Shown: positions 2,646-56,765 of the stretch, in pieces | How positions within the stretch are numbered: position 1 is the first letter of the stretch | How the letters are laid out: each line of letters starts with the position of its first letter | Origin: Rugalucina vietnamica | Taxonomy: Eukaryota; Mollusca; Bivalvia; Lucinida; Lucinidae | Reading direction: 5' to 3' | NCBI GenBank assembly: GCA_964017185.1 | Contig: OZ024871.1 | Span: 63,926,866 to 63,990,865, forward strand | DNA length: 64,000 nucleotides | Translations under genes and position numbers: made by a program | The notes under the pieces: generated by a model | The model's database searches: none | Told to the model about the DNA's origin: nothing | The model's input: only the letters and a program-made list of their open reading frames with translations

Positions 2646-2890
2646 TTTTATTTTTGTTCAAAAACATAGATTGTGGGTACTCGATAGAACCGCCTCGCTA
2701 TTTTTGCTCAAAAAATAGATTGTGGGTACACGTTAGAACCTCCTCGCCGAGGCGGTTCTAACGAGTACCCACAATGTATGTTTTGGAGCAAAAATAAGAA
2801 AGATATGTATACCCCAGGTTTACTATATAAAAGTGGGGCTGAGAGGGTATTCAATTCACGGACATGTTATCCTGATGAAGTATTGAAGCA
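2646..2890 (+). mobile_element. Hairpin-plus-TATA repeat, copy 1
   Basis: Member of a family with five full copies and one tail-only copy in the window. It consists of a long hairpin (2701-2795), whose arms read TTGTGGGTACACGTTAGAAC and GTTCTAACGAGTACCCACAA around a CCTCGCCGAGG centre, followed by AGCAAAAATAAGAAA, a TATA-like CTATATAAAAGTGGGG and the tail CGGACATGTTATCCTGATG. This copy has an extra left half-hairpin at 2655-2700. There is no ORF. The class is unknown; foldback or MITE-like by structure. Confidence 0.75.
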
Positions 2891-3124
2891 TCGTATTGCG
2901 TCGTAGGTAAATCAGACAGCTAACCATGGGCCGAAGATTCACCGCTAGTCTTTTGATGCCAATAACGTTCCCTCACCCTACACTACAACATGTATATACA
3001 TGTACTCAACACGAGATACCATGGTTATAAGTTTGTTCATCACGATAACTTGCCCATGCAATATACAGAAAATGATTCCAGCAGTAAAAATGAAATTTCC
3101 ATTGGAAAAAAAAAGTGGTAAATT

Positions 3125-3330
3125 TTAATATGTTTGCTCAAAACATTGATTGTGGATACACGTTAGAACCGACTCGCCTCGCCGAAGCGGTTCTAGCGAG
3201 TACTTACAATCTATGTTTTGGAACGGAAATAAGAAAAATAGGTACACCCCTGCAAACCCCAATTTTTTCTATATAAAAGTGGTGTTTAACTGGGTATACA
3301 TTTTACGGGCATGTTTTCCTGATGTTATTC
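3125..3330 (+). mobile_element. Hairpin-plus-TATA repeat, copy 2
   Basis: Same order as copy 1: TTGCTCAAAACATTGATTGT, an imperfect GAACCGACTCG / CGAAGCGGTTC palindrome, AAATAAGAAAAATAGG, CCCCTGCAAACCCC, CTATATAAAAGTGG and CGGGCATGTTTTCCTGATG. It is about 250 bp downstream of copy 1, in direct orientation. Confidence 0.75.
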
Positions 3331-3546
3331 ACAATATATTCTATGAACAGTTTTCGTTTCTATCTTATCATCAATTGTAGCAAAATGTTTACTCGAAGTA
3401 ATCAATCATATTCAACAAGCTGCATATCGCTCTACAAAGAACATCGTCATGATAAAATACCTGTCAGTTTTGTGCTATATGATGAGAGTAATTAAGATGT
3501 ATTTATTTGAGCCTAGAACAAACAGCGGTTAAACGGAAATGTCTAT

Positions 3547-4003
3547 GTTATGCACCAGTCATTTGCAACCCCGGCTCCCCCGGGGACGGGGAATAGCGGG
3601 GCTTTTAGCTTTTCAATTTTTAAAGCCCGGCTAAAAGCCCGGCACTGCCGGGCAAGGGTTTTGGTAAAACCCCTGCTAAAAGCCCCGGCTCCCCAAGGGC
3701 TGACAATAACGTGGAACAACAGCTGGGAGTTGTTCTGATGAAACTGAAACATGGGAGAAGGGCCTCATTTTATGCATGTAAATGTTTAGGTGCATTTGGA
3801 AATTAAATAAGTACCATAAAGATAATTAAATGTTAAAAATGTCATTAAAATCTCATTTGAATTAATGTGACAGTGTATTGGCGGGTAATCATAACCCCGG
3901 CAAATCCCCGGCACTGCCGGGACACATCAGAGGTTAAAGCCAGGCACTTTAGCCCCGCTATGTCCCCGCTATCACCGGCCCCGGGGAAATTTAATCTCAT
4001 TTA
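3547..4003 (+). mobile_element. GC-rich CCCGGCACTGCCGGG element, copy 1
   Basis: It stands out sharply from the AT-rich surroundings. It begins TGCACCAGTCATTTGCAACC and contains two CCCGGCACTGCCGGG palindromes (about 3638 and 3908) among runs such as CCCCGGCTCCCCCGGGG and AGCCCCGCTA. It corresponds to the reverse complement of 54857-55345: the left part here matches the right part there and vice versa. A shorter relative with the same terminus lies at 52340-52665. Non-coding, inferred MITE-like. Confidence 0.7.
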
Positions 4004-4722
4004 AAGTCCAAAACCAAAGGTAGGAAATAACTGACATATTATAATGAACAGGATAAAATCCATCAGATCTGTTTTTAAATCACTTTTTATTCAAAGCCGC
4101 GTTCCTTAAAGCAATGACGTCATGATCCTTTATAGGCTAATCCTATTCCGAAGGTAACCATAGCCCTATTTCAGAGAGATATTGATTCTTACTCTAGCCT
4201 TAACTTTATTATTCGGTACTGTTACTCATAACCTATCCATAGCCTAACTCTACAGGTTCTGCAATAAAAGAGTAACGTTTAATAGTACTTTCTCTTATAT
4301 TTGAACCGACGTTTTTGGCCTCTCTAACGCTTAAAATCGCAATATGATTGTCTTCATATTAATTTGGGGGTCATTTCTGTGACCTCTATATGCAAATTAA
4401 GACAGCAGAAATGCGATAAAAAACATTTTGCAATTTTTGCATACGCAGTCTTATCAATAAAATCGTACATGTACCATTGCTTACGATTTAGTGGGACCGG
4501 CACTTAAATTAAATACTCTATGGTATTCTCGATGCCTTAATAAGATGACAATGCTCTCCAATCTCATGATTATACGCCACGCACATCAATGTTTTATACA
4601 CTTATGACAACATAATCAAAGATGTGTTCACCTTTAGCTCATTGATCAACTTTGATAGTTAATACGTCGGGGCACAAATCACAAGAGCTGTTTGATCATC
4701 ACTAAAAAAAATTAACTATAGA
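4004..4722. other. No gene seen
   Basis: AT-rich sequence without ORFs of interest, splice-linked frames or recognisable repeats. Confidence 0.5.
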
Positions 4723-15285: not shown

Positions 15286-15760
15286 GAACTTTGGTGACGT
15301 TCCTCGTCGTGCTTCTTATGGTGTATACATTTCGCAACTTATTAGGTTTGCTAGAGTCTGCAATCATGTTACAGACTTCAACGCTCGAAATAAATGTTTA
15401 ACGGCCAAACTTTTTCAACAGGGCTATCGGTATCATAAACTTCGAAAAACCATTTCGTAGACACTATGAATTGATTTTCAAATAAAATGTTGGGTTAAAG
15501 ACGCTTTTAAGTGAGGGCCTTTCGGAACCAGAATTTTATGGTGACTTGGTTTACAAATTTAAGAAACTTATAGGAAGTAATGATTTTTCTTTTCAGTTTA
15601 GAAAAATCATAACACGTTACAAACCTATAGGTTATAACTTGAATTTTATGCGACAATCTGCATGCATAGTTTTTAACCCAGTCACGCTTGATAACTATGC
15701 TGCCTTCTTTAATTGCACGCCGGTGGGTCGGGCGTCAGACTCTATGATGGCCCCGACTTA
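15286..15760 (+). pseudogene. Reverse transcriptase C-terminal remnant, Penelope-like
   Basis: Broken coding remnant of a retroelement RT. It starts inside the gene at residues GDVPRRASYGVYISQL, continues through RFARVC and FNARNK, hits a stop after a short deletion (near 15460), then resumes in another frame as YGDLVYKFKKLIGSNDF, RKIITRY and NCTPVGRASDSMMAPT before its natural stop. The conserved blocks match those of the copies at 18648-18896 and 61074-62200. The catalytic RT motifs lie upstream and are absent here. Assignment to Penelope-like elements comes from remembered family resemblance, so the clade is uncertain; RT origin is firm because the longer copy shows YLDD. It cannot make a working enzyme. 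Confidence 0.75.
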
Positions 15761-16388
15761 AAGCTATTCATTTTAGTTGGTTGGGGCCGGAGCTTCTTGT
15801 CTGTTGCTTGGTCCACCGGAGTCTAACTGGTGTTTTTCTTTTGCTCCGGAGTTAGTAAGTTATTCGGCGCCCAGGGATCTCCATCGTCGGACAGCTTAGT
15901 GAATCTGTGAGTCCTGGTTTTTGATTCATCAGGATGTTTATCTTGATTTATTTGTTTGTTCTTGGTGATTCATTGACTAGTTAGAGATTCACCACGAGGA
16001 CCGAAGAACTAACTAAATGTTATGAACCACTGCAGAAGCTGAGGGTGAGGCTATGGCCATGTAAAATCGATTTAAACCCGCCAGTAACTTTGTGTTACTG
16101 ATCGTTCCAAGTCGATACTTCTGTGGTGGTTCTTTTTGTTTTATGTCTTGGTGTTTAAAATATTTTTGTGTTGTTGGCGCATTATGTATGTTTTCATATT
16201 TTTAGTTAAGTTTAGGTAACTGAGTGGCCACCTATTGGGAAAATAGCTGCTCATTCGGCTTACGAAATATTTACATGGTATAAGCACCTGCTTGTTAGTT
16301 TGGTTTTTTCCCACCTCGGTTTTTGGAGGAGGAATCTTTTTCTGATTGCGCCTTTTCCTGATCTTTGCCTACTTGTACCTTTAAATAA
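15761..16388 (+). mobile_element. Penelope-like element 3' non-coding region
   Basis: The 3' part following the stop of the remnant upstream. Landmarks in order: GCTATTCATTTTAGTTGG, CCGGAGCTTCTTGTCTG, GATTCATCAGGATG, GAGATTCACCACGAGGACCG, CAGAAGCTGAGGGTGAGG, CGCCAGTAACTTTGTGTTAC, CTGTGGTGGTTCTT, GAGTGGCCACCTATTGGG, TTCCCACCTCGGTTTTTGG and GCCTACTTGTACC. Other copies of this terminus are at 18005-18647, 23405-23762, 39530-39745, 59361-59555 and 60590-61070. Confidence 0.8.
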
Positions 16389-18004: not shown

Positions 18005-18647
18005 CAGACATTTCAAAATTGACAACAAAAAAGTACAAGTAGGCAAAGAACAGGAAAGGGCGCAATCAGAAAAAGACTCCCACTCCAAAAACAAAGGTGG
18101 GAAAAAACCAAACTAACATTCAGGTACGTATACCATGAAAACATTTCGTAAGCCGAATGAGCAGCTATTTTCCCAATAGGTGGCCACTCAGTTACCTTAA
18201 CTTAACTAAAAATATGAAAACATACATAAGGCGCCAACAGCACAAATATTTTAAACACCAAGACATAAAACAAAAAGAACCACCACAGAAGTGTCGACTT
18301 GGAACGATCAGTAACACAAAGTTACTGGCGGGTTTAAATCGATTTTACACGGCCGAAACCTCACCCTCAGCTTCTGCAGTGGTTCATAACATTTAGTTAG
18401 TTCTTCGGTCCTCCTGGTGAATCTCTAACTAGTAAATGAATCATCAAGAACAAACAAATAAATCATGATAAACATCCTGATGAATCAAAAACCAGGACTC
18501 ACAGATTCAGTAAGCTGCCCGACGATGGAGATCCCTGGGCGCCAAATAACTTACTAACTCCGGAGCTAAAGAAAAACATCAGTTGGACCCCGGTGAGCCA
18601 AGCAACAGACAAGAAGCTCCGGCCCCAACCAACTAAAATGAATAGCT
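18005..18647 (-). mobile_element. Penelope-like 3' non-coding region, minus strand
   Basis: A well-preserved copy of the 3' region. In plus-strand order: AAGTAGGCAAAGAACAGG, CCCACTCCAAAAAC, CGTAAGCCGAATGAGCAGC, GGTGGCCACTCAGTTACC, AAGAACCACCACAGAAGT, CTCACCCTCAGCTTCTGCAG, GAATCTCTAACTAGT, CCTGATGAATCAAAAACC and GAAGCTCCGGCC. The coding remnant follows at 18648. Confidence 0.85.
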
Positions 18648-18897
18648 TTAAGTCGGGGCCATCATAGAGTCTGACGCCCGACCCACCGGCGTGCAATTAA
18701 AGAAGGCAGCATAGTTATCAACCGTGATTGGGTTAAAAACTAAGCATGTAGATTGTCGCATAACATTCAAGTTATAACCTATACGTCTGTAACGTGTTAC
18801 GATTTTTCTAAACTGAAAAGAAAAATCATTACTTCCTATAAGTTTCTTAAATTTGTAAACCAAGTCACCATACAATTCTGGTTCCGAAACAAACAAT
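18648..18897 (-). pseudogene. Reverse transcriptase C-terminal remnant, Penelope-like
   Basis: Minus-strand open segment of about 80 codons giving SEPELYGDLVYKFKKLIGSN, FRKIVTRYRRIGYN, CLVFNPITVDNYAAFFNC and TPVGRASDSMMAPT before the natural stop. It is nearly identical to the C-terminal part of the copy at 15546-15760, so the frame and stop are genuine for the family. The element is 5'-truncated at about 18900. The RT catalytic core is missing, so this is a dead copy. Confidence 0.8.
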
Positions 18898-49615: not shown

Positions 49616-51664
49616 TTAAGCTGCTATATGCTCTTTCAAAGTTCTTTTGAATGTGTTCAAGGACGGTGCTTGTCTGATTGATGTCGGGAACGTATTCCAT
49701 AGTTTGGGGGCTGAGCATGTAAATGAGCCTGTGTAAAAAGATGTATTGGTCTTTGGTATTACTAGTGCGCCATTTTCAGTTGATCTCAAAGTTCTGTTAT
49801 ATACTAAAGCTGTTGGTGTCAGCAAATCGGATATGTATGACGGCGTAAGATTGTTCAAGGCCTTGTATGTCAGAATGGCTTTATTATATTTAATTCGATT
49901 TGATACTGGCATCCAATCTAATCGTTGAAACATTTCCTCTGATGGAGTAATATAGTCTGCGTTTAAAATGATACGTGCCGCTCGTTTTTGCATCTTATTT
50001 ATACGTTCAATGTTCTGTTTTGATGTGGATCCCCAAGAAATCGAACCGTAATCAATCATAGGGAGAATGTAGCTTTGATAATACATTTTTTGGACATTTT
50101 GTGGAACATAATAAGAAAGATGTTTTAGAAGTGATATCCTAGAGGAAATGACGGAACATAAGTAATCAATATGTTTGTTCCAAGTAAGAGTTTCATCAAT
50201 ATGTAAGCCTAATAATTTTTGAGAACTGACTGAGTTTAGAGGAGTATTACCGATAGTTATATTCAATTGACCTGCCTGTTGAAGTTTATATATAGTACCA
50301 AGGGTCATAGTAGTTGATTTACCATAATGAATTGGCAGTTTATTTCTTATACTCCAGTCATCTGTTTCATTTGCATCCGTTTGCAATTTATGTTCAATTT
50401 CGGGCTTGTTTTTCCCCGATATGTGAACAGTACTATCGTCTGCATATAGATCAGCGAGACAATGTTTCAGATAGAGAGGCAGGTCATTGATAAATAATAG
50501 AAATAATGTGGGCCCCAGAATAGAGCCCTGGGGCACACCCGATAACATCTCAGAGAATTCAGACATACCGTCGTCGCTCTTTATGCATTGAACGCGAATA
50601 CTTAGGTAAGACTGGAACCAGTTTAAGGATGCATTGCTCAGCTTATAGTGTGTCAGCTTTTTAAGAAGAAGCGGATGGTCGACCATGTCGAAGGCCTTTC
50701 TGAAATCAATAAACAAAGAACCAATTATGTCTCTCTTATCGATACTTTCCATCCACTGATCTATCAGTTTAATAAGTGCAGTATTACAGCTGTGTTTTTG
50801 TCTGAAACCAGATTGGCATTCATGTATCAATTTGTGTTTATTTAGAAATCGCATAAGGTGGATATTGACATGTTTTTCAAAAATTTTTGAGATGGTGGGC
50901 AAAATAGAAATTGGGCGGTAGTTTGATGGGTCATCTTTTGCACCATTTTTAAAAATTGGATAAACCTTTGCTTGTTTAAGCTGATTTGGAAAACGCCCAC
51001 TAGTGATGCTTTTATTTATCAAATCTGCGATGCTGGGTGCTATAACATCACAAGATAGTTTAATAATCCTGGGGCCGATGCCGTCCAGGCCAGTTGATTT
51101 TCCGGGGTCAAGTTTACGGATGAGAGTCGCAACCTGTGATGATGTGATGAGTGGGATATGGAAAAAAGTTTCTGAAGGCACTTTGTTGCTGACATAGTTA
51201 ATGAGCTTGGTTTGGTCATCCGCTTTTGCTGTCGTGTTGAAAGAATTAAGTCGTATAGAAATGTTAGTAAAAAATTTATTAAGCTTACATGCGATTTCGT
51301 TTGGATTTGTTACTAAATATACTATGCACAACAGAAATGGCTTTGAATTTGGAAATGCTACCTCGGACCAAAGAGTTTCAATGTTAGAAATCTCCAGTTC
51401 TGTTTTGCGCCTACAGTTAATCGTATTTCTGAAATACAATAATACCCCACCTCCAGATTTATCAATGGTGCAACCTCTATCTTTCCGCAAAATTTCAAAA
51501 TCAGAAACAGATATCAGATTATCAGGTGTAGTTGAATCTAAAAATGTTTCACATAGTCCTAATATATCAGGACCATTTTCAGAAGCTAAAACCATACTAA
51601 CGTCATCTAACTTAGAGAGTAAATGTCTGACATTAAGGTTTGCAACATGTAGACCTTTTTTCAT
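49616..51664 (-). CDS. LINE endonuclease (internally deleted)/reverse transcriptase
   Basis: Retrotransposon protein, open without frameshift for about 680 residues from the first ATG (51662-51664), just before GLHVANLNV. The frame itself stays open upstream to 51961. The N-terminus is an AP-type endonuclease fragment: the Asn of ANLN and the Glu of LCETFLD are present, then GGGVLLYF. At about FLLCIVY the sequence jumps to VTNPNEIACKLNKFF, so the later catalytic blocks of the nuclease and the linker are missing. The RT domain is complete: FIDFRKAFD, SGVPQGSILGP and YADD (Asp-Asp active site), then thumb and a C-terminal LWNTFP...SLNTFKRTLKE tail. RT activity is plausible, but target nicking is not. 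CR1/jockey superfamily is firm; the exact clade is not. Confidence 0.88.
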   Translation of the reverse strand: MKKGLHVANLNVRHLLSKLDDVSMVLASENGPDILGLCETFLDSTTPDNLISVSDFEILRKDRGCTIDKSGGGVLLYFRNTINCRRKTELEISNIETLWSEVAFPNSKPFLLCIVYLVTNPNEIACKLNKFFTNISIRLNSFNTTAKADDQTKLINYVSNKVPSETFFHIPLITSSQVATLIRKLDPGKSTGLDGIGPRIIKLSCDVIAPSIADLINKSITSGRFPNQLKQAKVYPIFKNGAKDDPSNYRPISILPTISKIFEKHVNIHLMRFLNKHKLIHECQSGFRQKHSCNTALIKLIDQWMESIDKRDIIGSLFIDFRKAFDMVDHPLLLKKLTHYKLSNASLNWFQSYLSIRVQCIKSDDGMSEFSEMLSGVPQGSILGPTLFLLFINDLPLYLKHCLADLYADDSTVHISGKNKPEIEHKLQTDANETDDWSIRNKLPIHYGKSTTMTLGTIYKLQQAGQLNITIGNTPLNSVSSQKLLGLHIDETLTWNKHIDYLCSVISSRISLLKHLSYYVPQNVQKMYYQSYILPMIDYGSISWGSTSKQNIERINKMQKRAARIILNADYITPSEEMFQRLDWMPVSNRIKYNKAILTYKALNNLTPSYISDLLTPTALVYNRTLRSTENGALVIPKTNTSFYTGSFTCSAPKLWNTFPTSIRQAPSLNTFKRTLKEHIAA

Positions 51665-51961
51665 AAAAGTAAATTCAGTAGCCTCCCCATCATTGGATAC
51701 ATTAGACAAAAGCGTATCAGCTGAGTTTTGTACAGTACTGTTCGTGGAGGAGTCGTTTCCCTCAGTAATCTCAGAGATAGTCTCTGCATTATGAATATAA
51801 TCATCTGACCGAATAACAGGTTGATCAGATGGTTTGCTAGGTAAATCAACAATTTGCTCATCTACATGATCATTTTGATTAAATGAAATGTTATATATAT
51901 TTCGTGTTTTAGCATTTTTTACTGTTTCAGTAGCGTTTTGTTTTATATACCCATCTACATC

Positions 51962-52285
51962 CTAGTATGGGATACGATCGGAAAGCCTGTCGTTCCTTCC
52001 GTTATACCAACACTCATTTGTGTTATGACTTCCACTTGTGTAGCATATGTGGCAAAACCTTTTTGGTTTGTGCGTTCCTGGACGTTTTCGGTAGCCATTG
52101 GATGGATTACGGTGATACACAGGTCGATTCCTGTGATAAGTAACATTAACCTGTTGCGTGCGGACAATTTGATGAAGCTCGTTGATATGATTTAGCAGCT
52201 TTCTAGTACCGGCCGCGTTGATATGCAATTTATCTTTGAGGTAGAGAGAATCTACTAACATGCAATGTGGATTGATACCCTCCAC
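51962..52285 (-). pseudogene. LINE ORF1 remnant: SGNH esterase end plus CCHC knuckle
   Basis: About 107 codons preserved from the C-terminal part of an ORF1 protein. LYLKDKLHINAAGTRKLLNH resembles the final Asp/His block of an SGNH-type esterase (usually D.LH.N..G), with Lys where Asp is usual. Then comes a basic stretch (RNRPVYHRNPSNGYRKR) and a zinc-knuckle-like CHICYTSGSHNTNEC (C-x2-C-x5-H-x4-C). It ends at TAG 51962-51964, and the EN-RT frame continues in the same phase directly after it. ORF1 proteins of CR1-type LINEs with esterase domains are known and bind nucleic acid. The N-terminus is lost to 5' truncation. Confidence 0.65.
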
Positions 52286-52339
52286 ACTAAAACAATAGTC
52301 ATCATTTTTCTTTTCTTTTGTCGATATATGTATTTATTG

Positions 52340-52665
52340 CTAAAGTCCTTTGTAACTATTGCACACCCTCACACATACCTACGGTGAAGGGTGGGGGATA
52401 GCCGGGCTTAAGTGCGGGGCAATTATTGTCGAGTGTACCCGCAGTGCAGGGGAAATGACGGGGTTTAGGCATTAGGATCCTTACCCCAGGGCGATTTTCT
52501 ATTGCTACATGTACGGGTAGGGCAAAGAGCAAAGTTTTGCCCCCAGTTTGCCCCTGTGTGTGGGGCTTATAGCAGGGCACTGAAAGCAGAAAAGCCATAA
52601 TCCCCACCCTTCCCCGTAGGTGGTGGAGCAGTGGTTACAAATGACTGGTGCACAATTGCAGCTTA
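52340..52665 (-). mobile_element. GC-rich element, short relative
   Basis: The right end, read inward, gives TGCACCAGTCATTTGTAACC, the terminus of the elements at 3547 and 54857; the left end (GTAACTATTGCACACCC) is a worn inverse. The interior has GGGTGGGGGATAGCCGGGC, GCAGTGCAGGGG and TTTGCCCCCAGTTTGCCCC. The 83-codon minus-strand frame is incidental. Confidence 0.6.
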
Positions 52666-52755
52666 AATATGATCAAAAATAGAAAAATAGCCATTCTCGG
52701 TTTTGTTCAATATTGAGAACGAATCATTGAATGCTTTCCCGGCTTCATTATGTAT

Positions 52756-53503
52756 CAGCAGTCACACATTAGCGTATAACCCAAACGCGCGTCTGGCGTA
52801 TGAAAACTCTCAGCATGCTTAAAACAGCAGTCACACATTAGCGTATAAGTGAAACGCGCGCCGGGCGTGTTGAAAAAAATACAAATATCCACATACGCCA
52901 GACGCACGTCGGAGACACGTCCAAGGCGCGTTAAGCGCGCGCTGGGTACGCTTGGTGTACGTCCGGCGCGCGTCGCTAAAAGGCGGCGCGCGTTTCGTGC
53001 GCGTTTGGGCTAAATAAAATTTTAAACATGCTTAAAAAATTTCTAGAAGTTGGGCGTGTGTCGGGCGTGTGACCTACACGCTACAAGTACGTTCCACGCA
53101 CGTTACAGGCGCGTTAAATACGTTTCGAACACGCCCATCACACGCCGAGCACACGTTTCAAGCACGTCGTACACGCTACATGCGCGTTTCGATTTTAACC
53201 GAATGCTGGTTTGGGCGAGTGTGGAACGCGCCTGTAACGTGTGCCAAGCGTGCTTGGAGCGCGCATGAAACGCATACAGCGCGTCTCTAGCGCGTGCCTA
53301 GCGTGTCTGGGACGTACGACAAACGTACTCCAAAACTTTCAGATTTTTTATACGTCCGGCACACGCTTCAGTCACGCGCTAACGTGTGACTGCAAAAGCG
53401 TGTTAAAGGAACAAATTAATTTTATACGTCCAAAATCTTCAGCGTGTTGAGATTTTTCATACGTCCGGCGCGCGTTTGGGTTATACGCTACTGTGTGACT
53501 GCT
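52756..53503 (+). mobile_element. CpG-phased element: short outer copy with a full copy nested inside
   Basis: The outer element has ~66-bp inverted ends: CAGCAGTCACACATTAGCGT at 52758 and the inverse closing ACTGTGTGACTGCTG at 53503. Both continue ATAACCCAAACGCGCG. A longer copy (about 52825-53397) lies inside, starting GCAGTCACACATTAGCGTAT and ending CGCTAACGTGTGACTGC. Its interior has CG dinucleotides at 53079, 53090, 53101, 53112, 53121, 53132, 53143, 53154, 53165, 53174 and 53185. The frames at 53050-53450 read only CG-rich triplets and are not genes. Confidence 0.75.
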
Positions 53504-53551
53504 GTTTAAGATTTTGGACGTATAAAAATAATTTGTTCCTTTAACTCGCTT

Positions 53552-54103
53552 TAGCAGTCACACATTAGCGCCTGACTGAGGCGTGTGCCGGACGTACAAA
53601 AATCTCAAAGTGTTGAAGTACGTTTGTGTTACTTCCCAGACGCGCCAAGCATGTGCTACAGGCGCGCAGCAAACGCCCAACGCGCGTCTCACACACGCTT
53701 AGGGCACGCTACTGAAGCAATATCTCATAAAATCGGAAAACGTATGTGGCGTGCCTAACACGTGACGTGCGCCAAAGTGCGTTCATAGCGTATTCAACGC
53801 GCTTGTAACACGCGTGGAACTTATTCGAAATGTAAAAGACATACGCACAAGACACGCCCGGCTTCTGGAAAATCTTTAAGCATGTTTAAAATGTTTGAAC
53901 CCAAACGTGCCGAGAGCGCGCAACGACATTTGGCGACGTATGTCAACGTACACCCAGCGTACACCAAGCGTACACCAAAAAACGCACATGTAGCGCGTTT
54001 CTAACGTGTCTCCTACGTGCTCATGACGTATGTTGAATCATTCAAAGTTTACATTTTTGTCAACACGCCCGGCGTGCGTTGGCTTATTCTGCTTTTTTTA
54101 GAC
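53552..54103 (-). mobile_element. CpG-phased element, inverted copy
   Basis: Starts GCAGTCACACATTAGCGCCT on the plus strand and corresponds to the inverse of the copies on either side: GCGTGTGCCGGACGTA, CAGGCGCGCAGCAAACGCCC, GTACACCAAGCGTACACC and CAACACGCCCGGCGTGCG. Between it and the left copy is an inverted pair, AAAGGAACAAATTAATTTTA (53405) and the inverse at about 53524-53545. Confidence 0.75.
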
Positions 54104-54665
54104 AGCAGTCACACAGTCATTAGCGTATACATAAGCTGAACGCGCGCCGGGCTAGTTGACAAAAATTGTAAAATTCAAATTACGCCAGGAGCACATCGGA
54201 GACACGTTAGAAGCGCGTTACACGCGCGTTTTCTACGCTTGGTGTACGCTTGGTACACGTTGATATACGTCGCTGTAAGTCGCTGTGCGCTTTAGGCGCG
54301 TTTGGGCCCAAAAACAATTTAAAAAGATGCTTAAAACTTTCTAGAAGTTCGGCGTGTCCCGGGCGTGTGTCTTATATATAAATACGTTTCGAATAAGTTC
54401 CATGCGCGTTAGAGGTGCGTTGAATACGCTTCGAACGCGTTCGGCGCACGTTTGAGGTACGCCAGTGTACGCTACAAGCGCGTTCCGATTTTATGAGATA
54501 TCGCTTCGGTAGTGTGCCCCAAGGGTGTGTGAGACGCGCGTTGAACATTTGCTGCGCGCCTGTAGCGCGTGCATAGCGAGTTTTGGACGCAACACAAACA
54601 TACTCCAAATTTATGAGATTTTTTATACGTCCGGCACATGCCTCAGACATGTGTGACTGCTAAAG
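54104..54665 (+). mobile_element. CpG-phased element, third copy
   Basis: Starts CAGCAGTCACACAGTCATTA and ends ATGTGTGACTGCTAAAGCG; GAACGCGCGCCGGGC, CATCGGAGACACGTTAGAAG and TTTATACGTCCGGCACATGC match the first full copy. CG steps at 54385, 54407, 54418, 54427, 54438, 54449, 54460, 54470 and 54481 repeat the near-helical spacing. Non-coding. Confidence 0.75.
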
Positions 54666-54856
54666 CGAATAAAAGGGGCAAATTAATTTTCATAGTTTCT
54701 CTAATAGTAACACATACTCGTCAATTTCATGGGGACAATTTTACTTTGATTACCAGGATAATTATCATTTCAAATGCACTCTTAAACCTCTAAATTTTTA
54801 AAAGGCACTGCAAAATTTTCATCGTAACAGCACGGTGAGTATCAAGGTTTTACTTA

Positions 54857-55345
54857 GTAATGCACCAGTCATTTGTATACACGGCTCACCTAGGGCCGGG
54901 GTTAGCGGAGACAAAGCGGGGCTAAAATGTCAGGTTTTAACTTTGGCACGCCCCGGCAGTGCCGGGGATATGCCGGGTTTTTAGTACTTTTTACTTTCCC
55001 GCCAATACACGGCCACATTAAGTCAAATTAGATAATAGTTGTATTTTAACATTTACATACTAGTGGTAATGGGTTCCACTATAGTGCCCTTTTCTGAAAA
55101 AGTGGCACCCATTACTACTCGTACTTTTATGGTCCTTATTCAATTTACAAATGTGCATGTTCATCTACATTCCGAAATACAAACCCCTCATTTTTATTCA
55201 TTAGAACAACTACCAGCTGTCGTTCCACATTATTGTTAGCCTCCGGAGTGCCAGTGCTTTTAGCAGGGTTTTTACCACAAATCTGACCCCGCAGTGCCGG
55301 GCTCTAAAAACTGAAAAGTTAAACGCCTTGCTATTCCCTTAAAGC
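54857..55345 (-). mobile_element. GC-rich CCCGGCACTGCCGGG element, copy 2
   Basis: Inverse of 3547-4003. AATGCACCAGTCATTTGTAT, GGGGTTAGCGGAGACAAAGC, CGGCAGTGCCGGGGATATGC, TTTCCCGCCAATACACGG, GTCGTTCCACATTATTGTTA and CCGCAGTGCCGGGCTCTAAA all have counterparts there. A unique-looking insert at about 55065-55215 separates the two halves. Confidence 0.7.
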
Positions 55346-56269
55346 AAATACCAAAGTGAGGGTGAAAACAGTGCAATTTTAACGTGACCTAACATATGAC
55401 CCCCACCTAGTTGATGGCTATTTTTTGAAGCACAGTTTTCGCTCCTTGTTTAAGTGTAATCGAATAGCATATCAGATTCTATGAAATGGGGTCCATAACA
55501 TTTTGTTAATTCTTATTAGCTTTATGGGAAATTGATTAATGGCATCATTGCGTTTCTTATTTTGTCGACGGGTATAAACAAATAAAGAAAGGAAGAAAGA
55601 AAAGGTATTCAACATAAAACGTTTAAAAGATCATGGATGGATATGAGTAGTAATGATCTCGTTAAGAGTCAAACAGTTTGTATGATCTATAACTTTCTGA
55701 ACTAGCGAAAAACATGGCTTTGTCCGTCAATGAATTGGACCTAAGCAATTTTAGATAGCCAAAATTCGTCTACTTACATATAAAACTGACAGAAAATGAG
55801 AACTCAATTTGTTTGTGTGGAAGGAATCAATTTGGTTTGCTGTGTACATGGTATCGAGCAAAGTAATCTGCTCGTCAAATTGCAGAATTGGGTTTTATCC
55901 GTTATGAAAAAACTTCCCACGTTTTTATAATACCACAGCAGTATGTAATGAATTTCAATGTCATGATAAGCATTTAATATTTAGCCTATTGAATGAATGT
56001 GCAGGGTAGCAGCGTATTTTAAGTAAAATTTTGAAGTGTTTGAAACACTGGTCAGGTGAAATGCCACAAAATATGGCTCTAATTCTTCCAAATACGGTTG
56101 TCCATGGACTGCACTAGGTGGCATAAATATCAACATTCGTATCTTGAAGTTATTTGAAAAGAAAACAAAACTGATGACGTCATTTGTTTACATTTTGGTG
56201 TATATGGAAACATTTGCGGTCACATGATTCCCAGCAGTGATAAAGCAAGCGATCGAAAACGTAAAAATG
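55346..56269. other. No gene seen
   Basis: Unique-looking DNA. TGATGACGTCATTTG (about 56171) is a full CRE palindrome, next to the stretch related to 48840-48900. Confidence 0.4.
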
Positions 56270-56554: not shown

Positions 56555-56765
56555 TTAATATTTTTGCTCAAAACATTGAATGTGGGTACACGTTAGAACC
56601 GCCTCGGCGAGGCGGTTCTAACGAGTACCCACAATCTATGTTTTGGATCAAAAATAAGAAAAATAGGTTTACCCCTATAAACCCTAGTTTTACTGTATTA
56701 AAGTGGGGTATAAGGGGGTATAAGGGGTATATATGTTATGGACATGTTATCGTGATGCAGTTCAA
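56555..56765 (+). mobile_element. Hairpin-plus-TATA repeat, copy 5
   Basis: TTTTTGCTCAAAACATTGAA, arms GTGGGTACACGTTAGAACCG and the inverse around CCTCGGCGAGG, then CAAAAATAAGAAAAATAGG, CCCCTATAAACCCTAG, TGTATTAAAGTGGGG (TATA box decayed), a GTATAAGGGG duplication and GGACATGTTATCGTGATG. Confidence 0.85.

Follow-up and report, generated by a model that had tools for sequence, protein, structure and literature searches.

According to passages of PMC9710019 and PMC4482050, autonomous PIF/Harbinger transposons mostly have a second, Myb/SANT-like DNA-binding protein, and in the case of Harbinger3_DR this Myb-like partner binds a 9-bp subterminal motif (PMC9710019). Here we describe a group of related non-coding elements in a 64,000-nucleotide stretch of the genome of the bivalve Rugalucina vietnamica (contig OZ024871.1; the whole stretch is called the window) that carry long arrays of a short motif. 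A larger repeat, BIG, contains two array-bearing bodies, Z and W, and a third body of this kind, Q, is inserted into it. The elements are non-autonomous DNA transposons, that is, miniature inverted-repeat transposable elements (MITEs), with terminal repeats and short duplications. What is kept in their arrays is the unit RYRCGYT at a step of 11 bp, not the CG dinucleotide. We think that the arrays are probably a multi-site docking array for a DNA-binding protein of the transposon that mobilises the elements. We favour this reading because motif and spacing recur in other repeats without significant similarity to Q, and because transversions are depleted in the motif.

The PIF/Harbinger MITEs (PHIS superfamily) resemble the elements described here in that they have 3-bp TWA duplications, terminal inverted repeats, a high copy number and no coding capacity. 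Unlike in PIF/Harbinger, no transposase is tied to the element here, and the array takes up most of the element, its units following one another at roughly one per helical turn. For the PIF/Harbinger-like MtPH-A6-4 elements of Medicago, part of PMC2213677 describes tandem repeats in subterminal position and of opposite orientation; there, however, the units are 60-bp long with a triplicated motif AAACNNCTTATT and, in that part of the account, no fixed CG, whereas here they are 11-bp long, degenerate and CG-cored. Galileo, a Foldback-like element of Drosophila, also has long inverted repeats that are internally repetitive, and excerpts of PMC3688188 place its THAP-domain sites in the ends, two of the three within the tandem repeats of long ends. 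On the other hand, Galileo belongs to the P-element superfamily and has three sites per end, the second and third at ~561 and 701 bp, and those excerpts report no helical array. Judged as Foldback-like, the present elements do have mirrored arrays of the RYRCGYT unit in both halves, but sequence similarity between the halves is weak.

CACTA elements (En/Spm, TgmR*) likewise have many short sites near their ends, direct and inverted, and in the soybean elements these subterminal repeats are, in passages of PMC4219821, taken as the sites of the element's protein and found less methylated in the mutable line. CACTA elements differ from those described here in their ends and duplications. To our knowledge, the spacing of CACTA subterminal sites is not a regular helical repeat. 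We also considered the coral CMITEs, whose internal region is common across families, and set them aside: they are ~100 bp long, with TTAA, and no array is described in the portion of PMC2872659 that concerns them. The present elements are distinct from these precedents in scale and regularity, with about 30 sites in each element, at a density close to one per helical turn, in mirrored arrangement and with a conservation that tolerates transitions. A literature search in one paper collection returned no description of this element design.

The preliminary description of this locus had drawn attention to CG steps spaced near the helical repeat. All 11 of the CG positions that it listed between 53079 and 53185 are CG, and 53070-53195 holds 18 CGs in total, 7 of them absent from that list. 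In the second stretch that it named there is a CG at 54385, 54407, 54418, 54427, 54438, 54449, 54460, 54470 and 54481, with one step absent near 54396 and further CGs between these. The CG-CG autocorrelation over 52756-54665, which had been proposed as a check, has its clearest expression at lag 11, with 70 pairs where 20.0 are expected from 1,000 dinucleotide-preserving shuffles (z 11.6); there are secondary peaks at lags 9, 20, 22, 31, 33, 42, 44 and 53. If the parts are taken separately, Q gives 35 pairs at lag 11 (10.0 expected) and the Z/W part 34 (9.9 expected). The ratio of observed to expected CpG is 1.73 in this region and 0.86 in the remaining window. Locally, then, the CG step is 11 bp, mixed with some 9-bp steps. 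Spectral power is maximal at 10.7 bp; of the full-length bodies, Q and W exceed the 99% null and Z does not, and of the six half-elements one does. Over hundreds of bases, strict phasing is thus less pronounced than the 11-bp step seen locally.

The preliminary description had further stated that the residues between the CGs vary while the spacing is kept. In the arrays the linkers differ widely, and most units have RYRCGY in common. The unit, which may be written TNNNNRYRCGY, runs forward in the left half and mainly as its mirror image in the right half, and there are about 30 such degenerate 11-bp units per element. RYRCGYT occurs at 75 sites in the 1,935 bp of this region and at 61 in the other 62,065 bp of the window; same-strand pairs of it at a distance of 11 bp number 26 inside the region and 0 outside. 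An extra copy of the motif, ATACGCT, stands just inside the terminal repeat (TTATACGCT...GTGTGACTGC). The arrays of Q are as follows:

52890..53010, forward strand: Q array 1, unit TNNNNRYRCGY, with exact RYRCGYT at 52926, 52937, 52946, 52988 and 52999
53076..53188, forward strand: Q array 2, the one counted in the preliminary description, with RYRCGYT at 53076, 53087, 53098, 53109, 53118, 53151, 53171 and 53182
53225..53328, reverse strand: Q array 3, reversed motif ARCGYRY at 53225, 53236, 53247, 53258, 53269, 53278, 53289, 53300 and 53322

Does the same arrangement occur elsewhere? In 238 kb of DNA outside the Q family we counted RYRCGYT pairs by distance and found 3, 8, 3, 6 and 5 pairs at 9, 11, 20, 22 and 33 bp; every one of these pairs lies in either L014 4830-5189 or L023 4330-4760. 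With three control heptamers the number of pairs at 11 bp was 0, 0 and 1. None of 2,000 shuffles reached either of these two places in sites (16 and 15) or in 11-bp pairs (5 and 3); the two are singled out by this test of heptamer plus spacing and not by CG spacing alone. When they are compared with Q, Q4, Z and W, even the best matches are short and not significant (E 0.009 or worse). Both are high-copy repeats: all 40 of the scored places match in each case, the query included, out of 2,017 candidates in one case (89-100% identity) and 573 in the other (97-100%), and the L014 repeat is very young (97-98%). The motif in these two repeats is mostly RTACGYT. In L023 and in L072 (the continuation of a copy of the L014 repeat), the motif is followed near the array end by a GTGTGAGC- or GTCTGAGC-like word, and most matches of the L023 repeat end within about ten bases of such a word. 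As far as sequence can tell, this arrangement is reminiscent of the Q terminus, so the two repeats could be very distant relatives of Q or separate elements that share their machinery with Q. Under both readings, what has been retained is the heptamer with its 11-bp spacing.

Next, we looked at conservation. The samples were 12 divergent elements (0.76-0.94 pairwise identity) and, within families, 12 Q copies and 26 Z/W copies; of the 28 outer-type copies and the window, 26 enter the Z/W count and 27 and 20 the control domains. The 12 elements are not independent, as L067 and Z are close and so are L062, L065 and L066 (0.91-0.94 identity). L063, a Q copy, and L068-L071 were compared as well and are not part of the 12-element alignment. 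An alignment of 50 or more copies had been suggested in the preliminary description as a test of whether CG positions are the more conserved ones. Run on the 12 divergent elements, it gave a divided answer: CG is not more conserved, and the motif is depleted in transversions. As regards CG, the CpG columns are 0.885 identical as compared to 0.894-0.914 for other classes of columns, and 35 of the 62 core CG sites are altered in some copy. Within families, variable sites number 126/5865 for CpG and 423/24978 for other sites in the set labelled P (slightly more for CpG, p 0.021), and 21/1992 and 89/6201 in the Q family (p 0.22). These counts show no special conservation of CG and lead us to reject CpG as the conserved entity; the preliminary description had itself named this outcome as one that would speak against its idea, and for CG as such it does.

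For transversions the result is different. In the 12 divergent elements we find 36/2025 transversions in the six-letter motif core against 102/1919 in the linkers, which is a threefold depletion, and sites with any transversion number 24/178 in the core and 59/168 in the linkers (p 2.6e-6). The contrast persists when sites are split by GC or AT. It is abolished or reversed by a register shift of at least 3 bases, with the minimum at a shift of 0 to +1. It is also seen in the consensus rows of Q, Z and W alone (11/172 vs 27/163, p 0.005).

The leading explanation of these observations is the one that the preliminary description had listed as a repetitive binding platform. Here the recurrence and the transversion depletion speak for it; the binding of a protein itself is something that we infer. 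Such a protein would be the DNA-binding protein of the mobilising transposon and would bind RYRCGYT; if the elements belong to PIF/Harbinger it may be the Myb/SANT-like partner, and otherwise the transposase itself. The 11-bp step would make adjacent sites face almost the same side of the helix, and many molecules could then load cooperatively. The loaded protein may mark the ends and draw the two halves together for cutting, and the length of the degenerate arrays might provide the avidity that a short and weak motif needs if it is to be located in a large genome. A wider version of this proposal would see a family-spanning addressing code, in which apparently unrelated non-autonomous repeats of one animal genome converge on, or preserve while nearly all of their sequence turns over, an 11-bp-phased array of the seven-letter motif. 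The code would be read by purine/pyrimidine class: a protein of the transposon or of the host would assemble along one face in a filament-like manner, transitions would be silent and the array would survive CpG decay. We offer this version as a speculation to which we give little credence.

Other explanations have to be weighed against the docking array. The 11-bp minisatellite, also named in the preliminary description, would have grown by slippage from a GCGCGT-rich unit, its copies would since have decayed, and nothing would read them. What stands of this idea is a residue of matching outside the CGs: non-CG bases match at lag 11 above background (0.366 vs 0.271, sd 0.017), and Tandem Repeats Finder detects one short 11-bp array at 53947-53978. 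The CG sites, with no special conservation, also agree with a relic. However, CpG-rich units should be the fastest to decay, and in spite of widely varying linkers most units still have RYRCGY in common, mirrored between the halves; nor would a relic account for the transversion depletion or for two other high-copy repeats that have this motif at this spacing and yet lack significant similarity to Q. As an explanation of the arrays we consider the unread relic unlikely, though a minisatellite origin is worth keeping in mind. The class-wise conservation, with transitions free and the purine/pyrimidine identity held, would also agree with a structural role, in which alternating purine-pyrimidine units at each turn hold the element open or aid the pairing of its ends, through left-handed DNA, bending or the exclusion of nucleosomes. 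Indeed, purine-pyrimidine alternation is 0.65-0.68 in the arrays and 0.50 in window bases 1-52000. On the other hand, the longest alternating runs have 9 bases (first array, 12-element majority sequence), and the motif is asymmetric and flips its orientation between the halves, which a symmetric role does not need. The two other repeats, moreover, mostly have RTACGYT, a poorer former of left-handed DNA than CG repeats, and we hold a purely structural role to be improbable.

Finally, the arrays could serve methylation or chromatin control as an unmethylated CpG platform, for example for host proteins of the CXXC type. The high CpG density in an AT-rich genome fits this, and array CpGs have fewer transitions than CpGs in the other domains of the BIG copies (81/5865 vs 47/1983, p 0.004), which hints, from sequence only, at low germline methylation. 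But CG is no more conserved than its neighbours, and the conserved word extends to RYRCGYT and is direction-specific; we regard this explanation as very improbable. A CpG-rich appearance can thus arise from a motif defined by purine/pyrimidine class rather than from selection on CpG.

Several points weigh against the docking array as well. No binding protein or autonomous partner was found: we compared the loci of PF13359, the DDE family of PIF/Harbinger, and of piggyBac, and no Myb/SANT candidate was examined. When the 150 scored PF13359 matches were set against the first 100 listed places of the Q-type terminus, by position only and by eye, there were one or two near coincidences, which we judged to be no more than chance. 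Among the 7 piggyBac-coding loci examined, of 40 matches, none has a Q-type terminus. Core CG sites are altered almost as frequently as the linkers, in 10.2% of cases against 12.9%, and sites with any change number 104/178 in the core and 106/168 in the linkers (p 0.38). Part of the transversion contrast is already found, in a weaker form, within young families (60 : 91, as compared to 36 : 102 between lineages; p 0.017), so that some of it may stem from base make-up or mutation bias; transitions move likewise (120 : 59 in young families vs 195 : 145 between lineages, p 0.037). The alignment of repeats could also hide core transversions, and the p-values are optimistic, as related copies are counted as independent.

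The spacing and the recurrence are subject to similar reservations. Strict phasing on one face of the helix is only partly supported. Outside the Q family, 4,419 scan windows were examined; lag 11 stood out in 12 of them, and lags 6, 8, 10 and 12 in 10, 13, 12 and 10, so that a CG spacing of ~11 bp as such is not shown to be special genome-wide. In a two-sequence comparison, L014f and L023f are similar over 53 bp (77%, E 7e-7), and because of this common stretch the L014 and L023 repeats may be one lineage; both may also be very distant relatives of Q and not independent inventions.

Internal repeated protein sites are one idea of how some MITE families without genes reach thousands of copies. 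Here candidate sites can be read from the sequence, with word, spacing and orientation kept while much else turns over. RYRCGYT is a motif to test against the transposase and Myb/SANT proteins of this genome, and arrays in phase or shifted by half a turn would be a clean design for asking whether helical phasing matters in transposition.

The anatomy of the locus is not the one first proposed. The preliminary description saw three separate elements of ~560 bp, and this has to be abandoned, as the genome has copies of BIG that lack Q and copies of Q outside BIG. Two of the three bodies, Z (reversed) and W (forward), are instead parts of the larger repeat, and the third, Q, is inserted into that repeat. 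The features are:

52258..56239, forward strand: BIG, a non-coding ~3.7-kb repeat, here a copy without its left end; the arrays of Z and W are part of it, and Q is inserted in it
52756..52822, reverse strand: outer end (terminal repeat) of the Z body, severed by the Q insertion; 67 bp, an 88% inverted match to 53438-53504
52820..52822, forward strand: left target-site duplication of Q, TAA; the right one is at 53507-53509
52823..53506, forward strand: Q, 684 bp long and non-coding, an insertion in BIG with the terminal inverted repeats AACAGCAGTCACACATTAGCGTATAA...TTATACGCTACTGTGTGACTGCTGTT; 11 other copies, L037-L047
54104..54690, forward strand: W, a Q-like body within BIG

These features were defined by searching the 1.09-Gb genome with 52756-54665. 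The best 40 of 4,083 candidates were scored, and they comprise the window itself, 28 copies of the outer part and 11 copies of the inner part only. All 28 outer-type copies (L009-L036) match the window BIG, wholly or partly. Full copies start with CACTGCTGGGAATC and end with its near inverse; in the window the right terminus is ...TTCCCAGCAGTG at 56239, and the copy L010 reaches ~420 bp further left. Of the 12 BIG copies with both ends, 9 have target duplications of 5 bp; L025 and L030, which are among these, have common flanks. The uninterrupted site (GCTTAAGATTTT) is present in three of the four BIG copies inspected (L010, L013 and L015), and in L017 the search string gave no hit. Where BIG lacks Q, the outer end at 52756-52822 adjoins Z directly. 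Z and W lie head to head and form a 75%-identical palindrome at 53524-54690. No stop-to-stop frame of at least 140 amino acids overlaps 52258-56239, be it in BIG or in Q. The elements have no match in viral contigs (by pattern), phages or genome contigs (by pattern), collections that may omit records near this genome.

We find the Q-type terminus at 1,812 + 1,728 = 3,540 places genome-wide with at most 2 mismatches, and the control with the pattern written backward gives 0. The Q-type ends read AACAGCAGTCACACATTAGCG...TGTGTGACTGCTGTT. Two features of PIF/Harbinger elements are present, namely terminal inverted repeats (AACAGCAGTCACACA.../...TGTGTGACTGCTGTT) and the 3-bp TWA duplication. Duplications were scored in 21 copies, 20 of them scorable at both ends (L043 was not), and 16 of the 20 have the duplication (10 TAA, 6 TTA); L037, L041, L022e and L044b lack a matching one. 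TAA/TTA duplications are given as a PIF/Harbinger signature in a passage of PMC4482050. The PF13359 family is abundant, with at least 150 matches in the genome (150 scored of 415 candidates). Membership of Q in PIF/Harbinger is therefore likely but not closed, because no copy of the DDE family is tied to Q-type ends.

A TTAA element (piggyBac or Kolobok) had first been suggested by the uninterrupted site. TTAA stands on both sides in 3 of the 20 copies at the scored offset, as compared to 16 of 20 for TWA, and we reject this assignment. The comparison with TTAA elements covered the piggyBac loci, of which three of seven have a terminal-repeat pair, beginning CCCT or CCTT, and none of seven has CAGTCACAC or GCAGTCAC; Kolobok copies were not searched for.

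Some further observations concern the copies of Q and other 11-bp arrays. In L044, a second, diverged Q-type element (2685-3343) directly abuts a Q copy. At 4000-4115 of the same locus, GACGTC cores follow one another at 11 bp (6 pairs vs 0.9 in shuffles) in a small palindromic stretch, which is flanked by CCCAGCAGGCACATGACGTCA and its near inverse. L047 harbours another repeat of 11-bp units, at ~4153 to 4445 or beyond; it has a second word as its core, RCGTGGA / RCGTGAR, and is reversed near its right end. All 40 scored places match this repeat, itself included, the others at 94-97%; its left border is near 4153 and its right border is not always reached. Four copies of the L047 type lie exactly 5,520 bp apart at C1:22758654-22775509 of the genome, which suggests a tandem array of a longer unit. 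As the L047 array and that at L044 4000-4115 have other cores, neither is counted as support for RYRCGYT.

Around the BIG copy, the flanks of the CG arrays at 52382-52655 and 54857-55055 match 3547-3981 of the window (73-79% identity), and 52626-52652 and 54861-54887 are inverted copies of a single end-like sequence. A 38-bp hairpin (92% complementary) lies beside the right end of BIG at 56569-56645, and a 49-bp unit resembling it is present twice at 2649-2747. On the reverse strand, 49616-51961 is an open frame of 781 codons with a reverse transcriptase domain, its upstream end ~300 bp from the start of BIG. Further away, two SECIS_1 matches of equal score lie on opposite strands ~3 kb apart (15736-15803, forward, and 18606-18673, reverse), perhaps an inverted duplication around the end of a selenoprotein gene. 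The window also contains a protein kinase frame.
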